Of a stretch of DNA of 22,145 nt, positions 2,101 to 18,655 are shown piece after piece (the stretch's first letter is position 1; the number at the start of each line of letters is the position of its first letter). The notes beneath the pieces were generated by a model that searched no databases, was not told the origin of the DNA, and saw only the letters and a list, made by a program, of their open reading frames with translations. Origin of the DNA: a virus; IMG/VR virus record IMGVR_UViG_3300031669_000257, positions 1 through 22,145 of that record, one strand, 5' to 3'. The position numbers and the translations under genes are program-made.

Positions 2101-5100
2101 TCAGGCCGCCAGGTTGAGGTTGGAGGAAGCGCCGCCGAGCATCATCGCCAGCTCGCGTTTCACGCTGTCCAGCGAGCCGAGCACGCTCTGGCTGTCCATC
2201 GCCTGGATGTTCATGTTGATCGTGTGGCCACCCATGCCGCCGCTGCTCAGTGCGTTCGTCAGCAGCTTGTTCGTGGAGGTGTCCACCACGCGCTCGCCGG
2301 CGTGGATCTGCGCCACCATGTCGTGCGGCACGGTGTCGATGCCGGTGGCGAAGCTGCCGCCAAGCATGGAAAAGATCGAGCTGCCGATGCTGCTCCAGAA
2401 TCCACCGCCTGCAGACGATGATCCGAGCGATGATGCTCCCGATCCGGCGCCCGATAGCATGGAGCCGAACAGCCCCAGAATCCCCTGCCCCGCTGAGGAA
2501 TTGCTGGCCGAGCCGGTGATGCTCTGCGCCAGCGACTTGGAGATGGTCTGATTCATGCCCGACAGCAGCGAATTGCTGAACTGCGCGAGCATGTTTTTCC
2601 ACGTCATGTTGCCGCGCATCATGTTGCTGATCAGGCCCTGCATACCTCCTTGAAGGGTGTCCTGCATGCTTTTCTGCACGTCATTGAGCTGCGTGCCCAT
2701 CGCCTTGATCTTCTCGATCTGGGCTTGCATGGCGGCGATCAGCGTCGGGTCTTTCAGGGCTTCGGCGTACTTGAGCGCTGCTTCGGCGGCTCGCTCCATG
2801 GCCGGCGCGATGTCCTTCTGTGCCGCGATGTCCTGCTGCGCCGACTGCTGGCCGGTGATCGAGCCGGATTCCTTGCGCGCGGCGATCAGCTGTTCCTCGG
2901 CCTGCAGCTGTTCCTTGAGCTTTCTCAGACTCTCGACAGAGTCGGCATACCCGGCGAGATTCACTGCATGGCCACCCGTGGAGGACATCGTTTTGATGTT
3001 CTCAAGGTGCGCCTGCATGGACGCCACCAGCGCAGGTTCTTTCATGGCCTTGGCGTACTTGATCGCCGCCTGAGCGGCGCGTTCCATCAGTGGAGCCAGT
3101 TCTTTCTGTGTCGCTACCTGCTGTTCAGTAGCTTGGGTCTTCGTGAGTGAGCCGCCCTTCTGCTCGGCCTCAATGAGTTGCTTGCGCGCATCCAGTTCCT
3201 GCTGCAGCTTGGAAAGATCGCCCACCGACTTGGTATATCCAGCCTTGTCAGCCATCGAGCGACCCAAAGCGGTCGCCTTGTTGGCATCCTTGATGTCGCC
3301 GCCTTTTCGCAGGATTTGTGCATAGCCAGCATATTTATCAAGCAGCGCCTGAACGGGGTCAGCCATCTTGGCGGACTGTTCCTCGATCATTTTTTTTATG
3401 CGGTCAAAAAGATGCTCTGCGCGCTTATTCCCCGTGGCAACCAATCCGCCGGGATGAAATTTCTTTGATGCGTCAAGAAGTGCCTGACGCTGCGCGTCCT
3501 CGGCGTTCGGGACGCTGGTGGGTGCGCGCAGGCCGGTCGACTTCGGCAGCAGCCCCATGCGCTGCAGGGCTTCGCGCATGTAGTCGCTGGCGTTCGCCTG
3601 CTGCGTGCCCTCGAAAGCAAACATGGATGCGCGGGTCGCGTCGCGCGCACTGGCTGCGGCCGCCTGCGATGTCTTGGAGGACTCGACCTGTTGCGACGCG
3701 CTATCGACACGGCTGGCCAGCGAATCCAAACCGACCGCGCGCAGCATGGAGGCTTCTTTCTGCCCCAGCTTGGCGACAAACCCCATGGTGCCCTGGTAGA
3801 GCTTCGTCCACAGCGCGTCGAAGCCGGCCATGATCGAGAGAATCACGCGTTCCATGAAATGCTGAATGGCCATGCCGGCGACCTGCACATTGCGCACGGC
3901 ATAGCCCAGACCGAACACCGCGGCGAACGTGCCAGCCAGCCGTAGCAGCACGCCTCCGATCGCTGCCGCGCGCGCCGCCCAGGTCGTAGCGATCGCGCCG
4001 GATGCTGCTTCACTCTCTGCCGCGGCTGCTGCCGATGCCGGACCGATCTTGTTCGTCCAGCCGACCAGGCTGCTGATGCCGCCGATCATGCGACTGAAGC
4101 CCTTGACGGTCAGGAACGCACCGAACGCCGCCGCTGCCGCCGACAACACGCCGGTCATCTTCGGGAACTGCATGGCCAGCCCATTGATCAGCTGCAGGAA
4201 GCCGTTCAAGGCCTCGATGACCTTCGTCACCGCAGGCAGGAACGTCTGGCCGATCGAGGTCTCCAGCGAGGACAGCGCTGCATGAAAGGCTTGCACCTGA
4301 CCGGCTTGCGTCTGCGAGAAGAGCTGCGCGGCGTTGTCGCCGGTCGCCGACGAGTTGATGCGTGCGCGCTGTGCGTTGATGCGCGAGGCGGTGCCGGGGT
4401 TGGCCGCCACATACGCGAGGTTGCCGACGTTGACGCCACCGGTCGGCCCGAACAGCTGGATCGCCAGACGGTCGAGCGCCTTCTGCAGCCCTTCGCCGGT
4501 GTCGGAGTTGCCGCCGGGGAAATACATACCGGGGTGCTTGTTGACGTAGGCGACCATGGACGGCGCCAGCGTCTTCATCATCCAGCCGATCGGGTCGGAC
4601 GAGCCTTCGGCGGTGCCCTTGATCTTGGTCAGCGTGTTCATGCTGGTCGTCTTGCTGCTACCGACCGCGCCGCCGGACTCGATCATCCCCATCTGCTGCA
4701 GCAGCTGATAGGTGACCTTGTTCATCTTGCCGCCGAGCATGGTCTTCAGGACCATGGATGCGGCCGTGCCGGCTTGCGACACACCACGCCCACCACCGCC
4801 CCCGCCCCCGCTATGGCCGGCCGTGATGAACTGCTCGGCGAACGCCATCAGGTTGGCGATGCCGGAATCATTGGCCAGCGCGCCCAGACCGTACTTCGAC
4901 TGGCGCAGCACCCGCTCCTGGTTCTGCAGGTTCATGCGCCCTTGCGAGGCTTCGGTGATCTGCGTGGCGAGGTTGGACGCCTTGACGATGCCGGTCGAGG
5001 ACATGGACAGGCCGCGGCTTTCCGCGATGCCCAGCATGTTCTGGATGATGCTTTTCAGGTCGCCGCCGGAGACTTGCTGTACCGCGAAGGCGTTTTTCAG

Positions 5101-6171
5101 CACCTGCGGGAGCGCCTCGTTGATCAGCTTCTCGTTGTTCTGGCCGGTGGCCAGGATGAACGCACGGCGCCCTTCCATGACCTGATTGGCCGAGGCATAA
5201 GCCGGCGTGTTGCGCTCGGACCAGTTGCGGGCGTAGTTTGCCGCATCCCCCGAAAAGCCAGCCGCGCGCATCGCCGCCATCTGCGTCTGCATGTCGGCAG
5301 CGGACTTGACCGAGGCCATCAGGCCCTTCTCGATCTTGAAGCCGGCCCACAGTTCGATCAGGCCTTTCATGGTGCCACCGAGACTACCCAGCTTTCCGTC
5401 GAGCGCGACGGCTGCATCACCAGCCCCAGCGATCTCGGCAGACGCGGCATTCGCAGCCACGCCCGTTTTCTCGAAGGTGAAGATGGACTTCAGCATGGCG
5501 CTGTCCATCACGTAGGTGGCTTCACCCAGTGCCACCGTTTCGGCGGCCACTTTGTTGATGGTCCCCATCAGGCCCGTGGCGGCGATACCCATGCCTTCCA
5601 TGGATGCGGCGGCTTCAGCAGACGATGCACTGATCTTGGCGGCAGCTTCGCGCCACTTCATGATCATGGCGCTGGATGCCATGGAAAACTGGCTCGATGC
5701 CGCTTCGGCAGCGACCCCGACCTCTTCCGTTGCGGCCGACGCCTCAGCCGATGCACTCACGATGCCTTGTGCGGCGCGCCGCCACTTCATGATCATGGCG
5801 CTGGTGGCAAAAGACACTTTTTCTGAGGCTGCGGTCGTCATGGAACCGACTTCTTCGGCCGCTACCTGTGCTTTTTTTGATGCGTCCGCAATCGATCGCG
5901 CGGCTTGATTCCACTTCATCAGCATCGACGACGTGGCAAACTTGACCTTTTCTTCGGCGCGCGCCGATGCATCACCCACAAGGCTGATGGCATCGGACGC
6001 CGATTTGCTGGACGCACCGACAGCGCCAAAGCTTTTCGACATCGCATTGAAACGCTGCGTGATCTGCGACGCCATCGCCGGCAGCTTTTCCAGCTTTGCC
6101 ACGAACTCGGCCAGCGGACCACTGGCAAAGTCGGCCATGGTCAGCCGCATTGCTACCTGCATGTCTGCCAT
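2101..6171 (-). CDS. Tail tape measure protein
   Basis: At 1356 residues it is the longest gene here, and it lies between the tail chaperone frames and the tail-tip genes. The start follows an AAAGGA ribosome site eight bases upstream. Residues 73-201 are three tandem 43-residue repeats. Residues about 260-420 resemble the conserved part of phage tape measures. A glycine run lies near 455-463. Two hydrophobic stretches (about 672-700 and 735-760) are candidate membrane-insertion segments. Residues about 978-1160 are two 96-residue coiled-coil repeats rich in Lys/Glu/Gln. The C-terminus has the usual ending, an N/Q/S-rich helix region, a Gly/Ser linker and a VPHDMVAQIHAGERVV motif. The protein sets tail length and is released on DNA ejection. 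Confidence 0.95.
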   Translation of the reverse strand: MADMQVAMRLTMADFASGPLAEFVAKLEKLPAMASQITQRFNAMSKSFGAVGASSKSASDAISLVGDASARAEEKVKFATSSMLMKWNQAARSIADASKKAQVAAEEVGSMTTAASEKVSFATSAMIMKWRRAAQGIVSASAEASAATEEVGVAAEAASSQFSMASSAMIMKWREAAAKISASSAEAAASMEGMGIAATGLMGTINKVAAETVALGEATYVMDSAMLKSIFTFEKTGVAANAASAEIAGAGDAAVALDGKLGSLGGTMKGLIELWAGFKIEKGLMASVKSAADMQTQMAAMRAAGFSGDAANYARNWSERNTPAYASANQVMEGRRAFILATGQNNEKLINEALPQVLKNAFAVQQVSGGDLKSIIQNMLGIAESRGLSMSSTGIVKASNLATQITEASQGRMNLQNQERVLRQSKYGLGALANDSGIANLMAFAEQFITAGHSGGGGGGGRGVSQAGTAASMVLKTMLGGKMNKVTYQLLQQMGMIESGGAVGSSKTTSMNTLTKIKGTAEGSSDPIGWMMKTLAPSMVAYVNKHPGMYFPGGNSDTGEGLQKALDRLAIQLFGPTGGVNVGNLAYVAANPGTASRINAQRARINSSATGDNAAQLFSQTQAGQVQAFHAALSSLETSIGQTFLPAVTKVIEALNGFLQLINGLAMQFPKMTGVLSAAAAAFGAFLTVKGFSRMIGGISSLVGWTNKIGPASAAAAAESEAASGAIATTWAARAAAIGGVLLRLAGTFAAVFGLGYAVRNVQVAGMAIQHFMERVILSIMAGFDALWTKLYQGTMGFVAKLGQKEASMLRAVGLDSLASRVDSASQQVESSKTSQAAAASARDATRASMFAFEGTQQANASDYMREALQRMGLLPKSTGLRAPTSVPNAEDAQRQALLDASKKFHPGGLVATGNKRAEHLFDRIKKMIEEQSAKMADPVQALLDKYAGYAQILRKGGDIKDANKATALGRSMADKAGYTKSVGDLSKLQQELDARKQLIEAEQKGGSLTKTQATEQQVATQKELAPLMERAAQAAIKYAKAMKEPALVASMQAHLENIKTMSSTGGHAVNLAGYADSVESLRKLKEQLQAEEQLIAARKESGSITGQQSAQQDIAAQKDIAPAMERAAEAALKYAEALKDPTLIAAMQAQIEKIKAMGTQLNDVQKSMQDTLQGGMQGLISNMMRGNMTWKNMLAQFSNSLLSGMNQTISKSLAQSITGSASNSSAGQGILGLFGSMLSGAGSGASSLGSSSAGGGFWSSIGSSIFSMLGGSFATGIDTVPHDMVAQIHAGERVVDTSTNKLLTNALSSGGMGGHTINMNIQAMDSQSVLGSLDSVKRELAMMLGGASSNLNLAA
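2690..3240 (-). repeat. Two tandem 96-residue repeats inside the tape measure gene
   Basis: Copy 1 starts at 3240 with GYTKSVGDLSKL and copy 2 at 2952 with GYADSVESLRKL, exactly 288 bases apart. Both contain E-Q-IEA/IAAR, TQ/QQ-rich, AP-MERAA-AA-KYA and MQA-IE-IK segments in the same order. The second copy is trimmed at its end. The pattern looks like an old in-frame duplication of a coiled-coil module. Confidence 0.85.
5569..5955 (-). repeat. Three tandem 129-bp (43-residue) repeats in the tape measure gene
   Basis: The three copies cover residues 73-115, 116-158 and 159-201. Each has F/M-A-S/T-S-x-M-x-MKW, then a run of Ala-rich helix, then A/S-x-EE/EG-V/M-G. A stretch of about 20 identical plus-strand bases starts at 5651 and again at 5780, 129 bases apart. 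The first-encoded copy is the most diverged. The period equals 43 codons, so gain or loss of a unit keeps the frame. Confidence 0.9.
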
Positions 6172-16649: not shown

Positions 16650-16940
16650 TCAGTGGCCTGGCGGTTGGATCGCTTGGATCTTCGTGAGCTTGTCAATGTC
16701 GATCTTGATCGCGGTCTGCAGGTCGAGTGTGTACTGCGCCCATGCGGCGTTTGTGAATTTGAGTGGGAATACCGGCATTGGCGCTGCTGTCGTCAGGCTC
16801 GCTGGTAGGGCGATATATACCGGCACAGCAACACGGACTGTCTCAATGCGCACTGCCGGAGTTGGCGTGCAGCTGATCAACAACAGCAGCGGGAGTGCTG
16901 CTAGCAATCGACCATGCCTCGACACTCGGAAACTGCGCAT
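16650..16940 (-). CDS. Outer membrane spanin subunit, Rz1-like lipoprotein
   Basis: The protein has 96 residues. Its first 98 bases overlap the 3' end of the Rz-like gene in a different frame, the classical nested spanin arrangement. The N-terminus is basic (MRSFRVSRHGR), then hydrophobic, and ends in lipobox LLIS-C24, so it should be a lipoprotein with mature Cys at 24. The mature part starts TPTPAVRIETVRVAVPVYIA and has a helical C-terminal region. At 96 residues it is longer than lambda Rz1 (60). Spanins link inner and outer membranes and disrupt the latter at lysis. Confidence 0.8.
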   Translation of the reverse strand: MRSFRVSRHGRLLAALPLLLLISCTPTPAVRIETVRVAVPVYIALPASLTTAAPMPVFPLKFTNAAWAQYTLDLQTAIKIDIDKLTKIQAIQPPGH

Positions 16941-17268
16941 AGATCACCGTGAGTTTGTGCGTTGCAGTATTACGCTGCGTCTGCATCTGCTGCGCGTACT
17001 GTTCGGCGGCATCGGCGTAGGTTTTGCTCAGCGCAAGGTCGGCAGCGTCTTTGTGCGCCCAGTCCCGGTTTGCCTGCTGCAATGTGGCGATAGTGGCAAG
17101 CTGCGTTTTCTGCGCCGCAACATACGCGGCAGACTGTGCCTGTACGGCGGCAACCTTGCTGCGGTAGTGGCTGATCTCGACGTGCTGCCAGCCGATCACG
17201 CCAGCGGCGGCCAAGGCCAGCCACGCCCAGACCGGCACCTTGCGCAGCAGGCCGAGGACGGCGATCAC
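16843..17268 (-). CDS. Inner membrane spanin subunit, Rz-like
   Basis: The protein has 141 residues. I chose the GTG at 17268, which overlaps the stop of the 36-residue gene (GTGA) and has AAGGA upstream; a TTG at 17301 in frame would add 11 residues. Residues about 12-28 (PVWAWLALAAAGVIGW) are the single membrane anchor. The rest is a periplasmic helical region rich in Ala and Gln (QSAAYVAAQKTQLATIATLQ) with a heptad-like pattern. The nested Rz1-like gene confirms the identity. Confidence 0.8.
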   Translation of the reverse strand: MIAVLGLLRKVPVWAWLALAAAGVIGWQHVEISHYRSKVAAVQAQSAAYVAAQKTQLATIATLQQANRDWAHKDAADLALSKTYADAAEQYAQQMQTQRNTATHKLTVIYAQFPSVEAWSIASSTPAAVVDQLHANSGSAH

Positions 17269-17375
17269 AGCATCCCGTCCTTGCCACTCATCAGCCACCA
17301 AACGAAGAGGATCGCGGCGCCAACGATGACCGCTCCGATCACAACCACCGTGGCGACGATTTCTAGGACATGCAT
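17265..17375 (-). CDS. 36-residue membrane protein of the lysis cassette
   Basis: The ATG overlaps the stop of the upstream gene (TGATG), and the stop overlaps the Rz start (GTGA). The sequence is MHVLEIVATVVVIGAVIVGA, then AILFVWWLMSG, then KDGML. Residues 5-29 are one strong hydrophobic helix with almost no soluble part. It could be a holin, a pinholin-like peptide or a small regulator. The exact coupling at both ends argues that it is translated. Confidence 0.6.
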   Translation of the reverse strand: MHVLEIVATVVVIGAVIVGAAILFVWWLMSGKDGML

Positions 17376-17389
17376 CACGCGTGCTCCGA
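17372..17389. repeat. 18-bp direct repeat, copy 1
   Basis: The 18 bases GCATCACGCGTGCTCCGA occur here and again at 17758-17775. This copy spans the stop of the peptidase-like gene and the start of the 36-residue gene. The next base differs (T here, A at the other copy). Confidence 0.95.
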
Positions 17390-17761
17390 TTGGCTGATTT
17401 TCACCAAGTGATATGTGTTCAGTACGCTCTCAATCCCAGAACCGCTGAAGTGCGGATCATGGGCGAGTTCGCCATTTCGATAGATCACTGCATGCCTCAC
17501 GCCGCGGGCCGATTTACCCGATGCGATGTAGAACTCAGGGAGCTTGTCGGTCTGATGCCCTTCCAGCCAGAATCGCTCATAACCGAGTCGTTCCAGCCAT
17601 TCGTCAATTCGATGATCCCAATCGCCGCGCCCGAACATCTGGTCAAAGGGAGGGACCATCCAGAGCGGCATGTCGAGCAGGGATGCGTAGCAGGCGGCGA
17701 GGCAGTTGCCATTTCCGATACCTTCATCGGAATACAGCCTGTCCTGTTTAACTGGCCGCAT
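17375..17761 (-). CDS. Papain-like cysteine peptidase-type protein in the lysis cassette
   Basis: The protein has 128 residues. The ATG overlaps the holin-like gene's stop (TGATG). The N-terminus has GIGNGNCLAACYASLLDMPL with C20 followed by a helix. A second part has GVRHAVIYRNGELAHDPHFS, giving H90 and D102. This C...H...D order is that of small NlpC/C39-like peptidase folds seen in phage and bacterial proteins, some of which may act on other substrates or be inactive. It is soluble, without a signal peptide. An 18-bp direct repeat brackets the gene exactly, suggesting an added cassette. Its role is unknown; peptidoglycan or protein cleavage, or regulation of lysis, are possible. Confidence 0.6.
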   Translation of the reverse strand: MRPVKQDRLYSDEGIGNGNCLAACYASLLDMPLWMVPPFDQMFGRGDWDHRIDEWLERLGYERFWLEGHQTDKLPEFYIASGKSARGVRHAVIYRNGELAHDPHFSGSGIESVLNTYHLVKISQSEHA

Positions 17762-17775
17762 CACGCGTGCTCCGA
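17758..17775. repeat. 18-bp direct repeat, copy 2
   Basis: Identical to 17372-17389, 386 bases further on. It spans the stop of the holin-like gene and the start of the peptidase-like gene, so both proteins end SEHA followed by TGATG. Confidence 0.95.
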
Positions 17776-18003
17776 ATTATCGTTTGCGACCTTGCCGATC
17801 GGCTTGCGCGTCACGTTGCGCAGCCAGACCACGATCACGCCGAGGGTGAAGCTGATCGCCGCGTCCGCCTTGCCGACGTAGGCATGCAGCATCGTGCTGT
17901 TGTCGCGGGCGTATTCGAGCACCGGCGCGGCGGCGATCAGGTGCGTGCCGAGCCACACGGTTTTGCTCTGCCACCAGCGTTTTGCATCGGCGTAGATCGT
18001 CAT
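17761..18003 (-). CDS. Holin-like membrane protein
   Basis: The protein has 80 residues and is coupled to the lysozyme gene by ATGA. It opens ADAKRWWQSKTVWLGTHLIA with a hydrophobic helix (about 15-33), has a polar middle, then a second helix (about 49-62, AISFTLGVIVVWL) and a basic/polar tail (RKPIGKVANDNSEHA). Two membrane spans and position beside the lysozyme fit a class II-like holin. The W-x-SKTVW start resembles other phage holins. It would form the pore that lets the lysozyme through. Confidence 0.65.
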   Translation of the reverse strand: MTIYADAKRWWQSKTVWLGTHLIAAAPVLEYARDNSTMLHAYVGKADAAISFTLGVIVVWLRNVTRKPIGKVANDNSEHA

Positions 18004-18440
18004 GACGTGCCCTCGAACATGGCGCGCTCAGCGGCGCGGCGAGTCACCAGCCCCGGCAGTGGATGACCGCCAGCCATGACCCAGAATCGGAATTGAGCAG
18101 CGGCCTCGGAATAACGACCCTCATTGAGCAGCCGCAGCAGCGTGGAATCTCGCAGCCGGCCTTCGCCCAGGTTGAACACGAAGTCGCACAGGGCGTCGAA
18201 CTGGCCCTGTGTGAGCGGAACGGTCACCAGCGAGCGAACCCCATCAGCCGCTGCATCGAGGTCATCGACCAGCATGTCCTCGGCCTGCTGCTGCGTGATC
18301 GTCTGGCCTTCGGTGATGCCGCCCGTCGAGCCATAACCTACCGTTAACACGCCCACCGAGTCACGGTAGGCGGTCAGCCGGCAGCCTTCGCTGGCCTTGA
18401 CCAGGTCAATGCAGGCTTGGCTGGGGTGGTAGTCGGTCAC
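18000..18440 (-). CDS. Phage lysozyme (endolysin), glycoside hydrolase family 24
   Basis: The protein has 146 residues. The start is a GTG overlapping the preceding TGA (GTGA); a longer frame upstream is a shadow. The catalytic triad of T4-type lysozyme is present in its usual spacing: E18 (KASEG), D27 (AYRDSVG) and T33 (LTVGYG), with the 9- and 6-residue distances of T4 E11-D20-T26. Further landmarks are QGQFDALCDFVFNLGEGRL and a C-terminal LVTRRAAERAMF. No signal or SAR anchor is visible, so export should depend on a holin. It cleaves the glycan strands of peptidoglycan. Confidence 0.92.
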   Translation of the reverse strand: MTDYHPSQACIDLVKASEGCRLTAYRDSVGVLTVGYGSTGGITEGQTITQQQAEDMLVDDLDAAADGVRSLVTVPLTQGQFDALCDFVFNLGEGRLRDSTLLRLLNEGRYSEAAAQFRFWVMAGGHPLPGLVTRRAAERAMFEGTS

Positions 18441-18655
18441 TTCGACGATCTCGCCATGCTCACCAGCGCCCAGATCGCGGCGCCAGCTGTCGCCATGGTG
18501 CCGAGGAATTTCATGAACCGGACGATTCCTTGCGCCGTCTCCCATGCCTCGACCAGCCCACGAACCTGCTGATTGAGGTCACGAACCTCGATGCGCAGCG
18601 CATGCATCTCACGCTGCCATTCCGGGGAATCGGGGCTGATTGGGTTAGGTGTCAT
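18437..18655 (-). CDS. Small membrane protein, first gene of the late operon (holin candidate)
   Basis: The protein has 72 residues. GGAGGAAAGC, ending at the ATG, is the best ribosome site in the lysis region. An in-frame open stretch continues about 109 codons upstream, but I reject it because its only early ATG lies within the promoter. The protein has a charged N-terminal helix (REMHALRIEVRDLNQQVRGL) and a C-terminal hydrophobic helix (about 47-68, MKFLGTMATAGAAIWALVSM). It could be a holin with one span or an accessory lysis protein. Confidence 0.7.
   Translation of the reverse strand: MTPNPISPDSPEWQREMHALRIEVRDLNQQVRGLVEAWETAQGIVRFMKFLGTMATAGAAIWALVSMARSSK

Follow-up and report, generated by a model that had tools for sequence, protein, structure and literature searches.

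Adjacent phage genes with a common 3' end have been described in Cluster I mycobacteriophages, in which gp67 and gp68 of Island3 share 18 C-terminal residues and ~60 bp, whereas Brujita features one copy of this shared end and no gp68 (PMC3029335). Both states are accounted for by recombination, either between the copies or with another phage (PMC3029335). The same paper also brings up conserved sequences at the boundaries of phage modules, at which mosaic exchange might take place (PMC3029335). In Cluster K mycobacteriophages, repeated start-associated sequences (SAS) with the GGAG-containing core GGGATAGGAGCCC are located immediately upstream of the start codons of unrelated genes (PMC3203893). 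Furthermore, homology-facilitated illegitimate recombination is documented in bacteria and is rare in E. coli conjugation (PMC3240628).

The locus described here lies in a stretch of viral DNA of 22,145 nucleotides (IMG/VR record IMGVR_UViG_3300031669_000257), referred to as the window. It resembles the Island3/Brujita pair in that a short sequence is common to the 3' ends of adjacent genes, with SEHA and a stop occurring in frame twice, and in that relatives without the inserted gene hold one copy at the joint (loci L008, L018 and L048, as well as L007 with another gene). Nevertheless, the mycobacteriophage pair is nearly isogenic and has the longer shared stretch, whereas the sequence here measures 17 bp and the gene-free phages are more distant. 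Moreover, the element in the window contains the following gene's ribosome-binding site and recurs at the holin ends of many cassettes. With the conserved boundary sequences, as cited in that paper, it shares a short conserved stretch where two genes meet, beyond which the genes differ, here at ten holin junctions. Unlike them, it sits within the end of a coding region and was seen solely at the 3' ends of holin genes in a limited set of phages and prophages. Like the SAS, it is a repeated short start-site sequence with GGAG; however, SAS occur at many genes per genome and this element in two copies in the window. Owing to the first two precedents, the finding falls within a known kind of phage gene shuffling, and the first-pass annotation, which knew of no description of such an arrangement for this gene, has to be corrected in this regard, since Island3 and Brujita provide a published parallel as a kind. 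It gains in instructive value because its boundary is a holin end recurring across a set of phages and prophages.

The repeat is part of a lysis cassette encoding, all on the minus strand, a lysozyme, a putative holin, a peptidase-like protein, a 36-residue membrane protein, Rz and Rz1 (Table 1). The lysis setting had already been proposed in the first-pass annotation and is confirmed by the lysozyme and Rz1-like profile matches. The 80-aa protein is regarded as a putative holin according to its position, its hydrophobic stretches and weak profile matches. For the 36-aa membrane protein, profile searches gave no match, and a search for a relative of its exact start sequence in the window (TM36) gave none either. 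At the other end of the cassette, a conserved ORF of 60 aa (18437-18619), with 95-98% identity in L004, L006 and L007, runs in a different frame across the 5' portion of the full-length endolysin ORF, and the true endolysin start is therefore probably near 18437-18419. As the DNA between this ORF and the holin in L004-L007 is unlike that of the window, the endolysin itself is exchanged.

Table 1. Features of the lysis cassette and positions of the two repeat copies in the window.
Feature	Position	Strand	Evidence
Endolysin (phage lysozyme)	18000..18545	-	PF00959 E 1.4e-45; phrog_7 E 2.7e-61
Putative holin, 80 aa, ends NDNSEHA-stop	17761..18003	-	Relatives L004-L007, L043
Repeat copy A: SEHA codons, GGAG, TGATG start of peptidase-like gene	17758..17775	-	Same element at holin 3' ends, ten junctions
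Inserted peptidase-like gene, 128 aa, ATG start (GTG at 17764 possible)	17375..17761	-	phrog_5845 E 2.4e-30
Repeat copy B: same element, peptidase/TM junction	17372..17389	-	Directly before TM gene in L008, L018, L048
36-aa single-pass membrane protein (TM34/36 type, ...W-MSGKD-L)	17265..17375	-	Resembles small ORFs likewise placed in L008, L018, L048, L005
Rz-like spanin, probable GTG start overlapping TM gene stop	16843..17268	-	Homologous ORF in L004-L007; weak phrog_89/phrog_13 matches
Rz1-like spanin, overlaps Rz	16650..16940	-	phrog_456 E 2.6e-6; PF23793 LysC E 1e-5, just below cutoff

As reported by the first-pass annotation, an exact direct repeat of 18 bp (GCATCACGCGTGCTCCGA, 18/18 identical, copies 386 bp apart) brackets a single gene of the cassette. 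In the minus-strand reading (TCGGAGCACGCGTGATGC, i.e., the codons TCG, GAG, CAC and GCG followed by TGA/TG and C), it comprises the last four codons of the upstream gene (SEHA) with the stop, the Shine-Dalgarno sequence GGAG and the overlapping TGATG, with a spacer of 8 nt from the GGAG core to the next ATG. The junction anatomy had been recognized correctly as well: both the holin and the peptidase-like gene end in frame with SEHA and a stop that overlaps the next ATG by one base, and the spacing of the copies equals the 387-bp peptidase ORF minus this base. Since the downstream genes start with ATGCGG and ATGCAT, the 18th base, the C after ATG, is a chance match, and the informative repeat thus amounts to 17 bp. 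As a side aspect, the CAC variant at 17373-17389 turns the spacer between Shine-Dalgarno sequence and start into a perfect 8-bp palindrome (CACGCGTG), whereas the CAT form of the relatives is non-palindromic.

A direct repeat of at least 18 bp occurred in 1% of simulated windows (n=200, first-order Markov model with the base and neighbour composition of the window), a figure that does not yet require both copies to lie in frame on consecutive gene junctions. With both copies on stop/start junctions besides this figure, a chance origin of the repeat is unlikely. Within the window, no third copy was found with up to 3 mismatches allowed, and the other junctions of the lysis cassette showed no resemblance to the repeat. 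As an alternative, selection might have shaped one and the same ribosome-binding site and stop/start overlap separately at the two neighbouring junctions, with no common origin. This would explain GGAG and TGATG, which are needed at both junctions and make up 9 of the 17 bases, and it agrees with an ordinary predicted RNA structure at the two repeat-borne starts (z -0.7 and +1.0). Nevertheless, eight further bases match beyond the needs of a generic ribosome-binding site, and the dissimilarity of the other junctions together with the lack of a further near match in the window makes this explanation very improbable. The longest direct repeat of the window is a different one of 25 bp (5651-5675 and 5780-5804), situated in a 1356-aa tape-measure-like ORF (2101-6171, minus strand), in which it forms part of a protein-internal repeat of ~43 residues (ATSAMIMKWR...). 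As such, it was rejected as kin of the lysis repeat.

Besides the window, the element was detected as a single copy at the holin 3' end in at least nine lysis cassettes (L007, L008/L017, L018, L021, L028, L033, L041, L048 and L055), with DDN(S/A)EHA or a close variant as the upstream residues. It is followed by a DUF6527 gene in L007, a small TM gene in L008, L018 and L048, an endolysin gene in L021, L028 and L033 and Rz in L041 and L055, which adds up to five kinds of downstream gene at ten holin junctions, window included. The element-bearing holins represent at least two families, the type of the window (L007) and the phrog_1356/DUF7940 type, with profile matches for the holins of L018, L021 and L041. 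Aligned on the start codon, the ten junctions are nearly invariant in the last 16-17 bases and diverge on both sides beyond; the perfect conservation over 16 bases is partly given by construction, because most of the single-copy loci were retrieved by searching for the element itself, and L007 (holin search), L008 (peptidase search) and L048 (TM-gene search) are the loci reached without it. A scan for DNxEHA plus TGATG with every synonymous codon allowed revealed only the GGAGCATGCG spelling in lysis cassettes. One codon varies, being CAC in both window copies and, among the nine other junctions, CAT in eight and CAG in one (L048). In IMG/VR, no other contig featured the exact CAC element, and no contig with two element copies was found outside the record of the window.

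Among 398 genomes from the order to which Dyella mobilis belongs, the tail motif with one mismatch allowed was found in two (L041 and L042), of which L041 is a lysis cassette; the L042 match lies within a long chromosomal ORF and was rejected as a lysis junction. In 233 genomes of the Dyella mobilis family, two matches were obtained, both of them holin ends. Loci with the 16-mer which lack the DN(S/A)EHA holin tail (L019, L020, L022-L027 and L029-L032, likewise L044 and L045) were set aside as chance matches. Judging from the sequences compared, the element occurs at the 3' end of the holin gene in a restricted group of phages and prophages, some of which reside in genomes of the Dyella mobilis family. 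As the relatives carry it at holin 3' ends before differing genes, the element belongs to the holin end, and copy A is therefore regarded as the native copy. A further-reaching idea would be a dedicated swap joint of the lysis cassette in this phage group (several being prophages of Dyella relatives), kept at the nucleotide level across holin families both for the start of the next gene and for the guidance of recombination, with peptidase, DUF6527, TM, Rz and endolysin genes plugged in and out and with a reversible loss of the peptidase gene, but we consider this unlikely.

The holins of L004-L007 are 88-90% identical to that of the window, with values of 80-89% also obtained for L007. In these nearest relatives, the slot behind the holin is occupied by a DUF6527 gene (PF20137), which is unrelated to the peptidase, and in L007 this gene stands in the slot together with one copy of the element (17/18). 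The small TM gene and the endolysin also vary among L004-L007 and the window. In L008, L018 and L048, the holin tail is immediately followed by the start of a membrane protein of 33-34 residues that resembles the 36-residue protein of the window, and in L043, a relative of the window's holin with a different tail is located directly before a TM gene. Thus, a gene-free holin/TM joint exists in nature. Because copy B is found in the same context, i.e., before the TM gene, as the element in L008, L018 and L048, it is most simply the original holin/TM joint, and it is best read as the holin tail and ribosome-binding site that would originally have preceded the TM gene and is now parted from the holin by the peptidase gene. 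The proposal that related phages lacking the gene carry one repeat copy is hence borne out by the joints of L008/L017, L018 and L048 and by the single copy of L007, but none of these is isogenic to the window and a deletion form of the same phage was not seen. A near-isogenic phage lacking the peptidase gene was not found, and the gene-free relatives carry different holins or small genes, from which the order of events has to be deduced. An order-level genome search with the holin alignment yielded one relative (L043), a search with this alignment of the contigs of GTDB species genomes no match, and tblastn of the holin against phage records no match either.

An assembly artefact, i.e., a chimeric contig joined at the shared 18-mer, would be conceivable for an IMG/VR virus contig in which the repeat is the sole sequence common to both junctions. 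Still, both sides have kept intact reading frames and overlaps, the flanks of the window are collinear with L007 and metagenome assemblers normally use k-mers longer than 18 bp, which leaves this explanation barely credible. A transposon or site-specific element with target-site duplication was rejected, as neither a recombinase nor an inverted repeat at the ends of the insert was present and the insert consists of one ORF of 387 bp that takes up the whole interval.

The product of the inserted gene is a member of phrog_5845 and matched no Pfam or NCBIfam family, hence no C39 sequence profile. Its structural model (pLDDT 88.6, with only residues 126-129, SEHA, below 50 and predicted to be disordered) resembles the C39 peptidase domains of PCAT1/ComA with a Z of about 10 over ~110 residues (VIA Z 10.2, rmsd 2.7 over 111 residues), and Cys21, His91 and Asp103 (counted from the GTG start) do not vary among the 14 sequences of the alignment. 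According to the model match and the conserved Cys, His and Asp, the phrog_5845 protein is thus a C39-like papain-fold protein and probably a cysteine peptidase. In contrast to the domains of the peptide exporters PCAT1/ComA, to which its identity is ~15-18%, the protein of the window is free-standing with 128 aa and has neither a transporter nor a Pfam C39 match; no transporter gene is adjacent to it in the window. A literature search for C39 peptidases in phage lysis cassettes found none. The SEHA ending occurs in 0 of 13 homologues of the peptidase, and the protein of the window extends three residues past the end of the L008 homologue. Its last four residues are most likely borrowed from the duplicated holin tail. 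With a GC content of 55.7%, the gene belongs to the lowest 1.2% of window stretches of equal length (window 63%, holin 63.7%), and its relatives in L008, L009 and L034 (Dyella mobilis) are likewise AT-rich compared to their surroundings. Members of the family are placed between TM gene and Rz (L008), between holin and TM gene without the repeat (L009), between Rz1 and a membrane gene (Dyella mobilis L034) or behind a DUF6527-like gene (L010). Across these placements, the phrog_5845 gene behaves as a movable passenger of lysis cassettes.

From the repeat, the junction anatomy, the single-copy relatives, the foreign tail and the base composition we infer that the repeat is probably the scar of a protease-like gene that entered a holin/TM joint, with the duplicated holin tail becoming its end. 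The 3' end of the holin gene, doubling as ribosome-binding site for the next gene (GGAG, 8-nt spacer, TGATG), would have been followed directly by the small TM gene in the ancestral lineage, with one element copy in between. The peptidase-like gene would then have been joined in such that its start followed the element and its 3' end was fused a few codons upstream of the one that precedes the TM gene, resulting in the order element, peptidase gene, element, TM gene. Thereby, the peptidase would have lost its own stop and would now end with the SEHA of the holin, and the peptidase and TM genes, which keep an identical start region, would appear to be translationally coupled. The likeliest route would combine homology at the element at one border with an illegitimate join at the other border, where the gene has its 3' end, with both element copies derived from the recipient. 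The first-pass annotation had likewise suggested an arrival of the gene at translation-coupled junctions or a duplication of the junction on insertion, and the single-copy relatives support this. Its further claim that recombination between the copies would restore a clean junction between holin and 36-residue protein agrees with the flanks joined by script from the window, in which the holin ending NDNSEHA-stop and the 36-residue ORF are both intact. A precise loss of the peptidase gene by this route is possible on paper.

Alternatively, a single unequal exchange might have joined a parent with holin, element and peptidase to another with holin, element, TM gene and Rz by one illegitimate crossover, so that the copies would stem from two parents. 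Two such parents are plausible, since many cassettes carry the element ahead of differing genes, and one novel join suffices. Nevertheless, both copies have CAC, as opposed to CAT or CAG at the nine other junctions, and thus share a recent source, which favours one recipient over two parents; otherwise, CAC would be needed in both parents or a later conversion would have to be assumed. In addition, a phage with holin, element and peptidase alone was searched for and not found. Taken together, the two-parent exchange seems rather unlikely. The order holin, peptidase, TM gene and Rz without the repeat in L009 indicates that this gene order can arise otherwise, which counts against the insertion reading. 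It would allow for a peptidase gene that was already in place between holin and TM gene, with the element copied to its 3' end later by gene conversion or template slippage. However, the holin and the small gene of L009 show no similarity to those of the window, and copy B is accounted for by the usual place of the element before the TM gene (L008, L018 and L048), with no copying step needed, so that a later copying is quite improbable.

Provided that the gene entered the holin/TM joint as proposed, the locus represents an unusually legible record of one gene entering a phage operon without breaking it. Since the joint is a coding end with a built-in ribosome-binding site for the following gene, whatever gene is inserted after it would become translatable, and any gene end joined before it would gain a stop and couple the next start. 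The locus thus offers a concrete testable case in the long-standing debate on mosaicism at short conserved boundary sequences versus random joins filtered by selection, and the joint of the window looks homologous on one side and illegitimate on the other. Moreover, the 36-residue membrane gene, DUF6527 and the phrog_5845 proteins gain a shared address in the lysis cassette.

Two further observations concern the neighbouring genes. L004 (887-1300) and L005 (3248-3700) have the holin and the DUF6527 gene in common and differ in the small TM gene that directly follows the stop of DUF6527, which represents a further swap at a stop/start junction. Likewise, DUF6527 and phrog_5845 genes turn up repeatedly as passengers, in place of or next to one another, near holin, TM gene and Rz (L010 2998-3381, L043 1843-2196 and L007 3270-3572), and a common function in controlling lysis or interacting with the host may merit testing.
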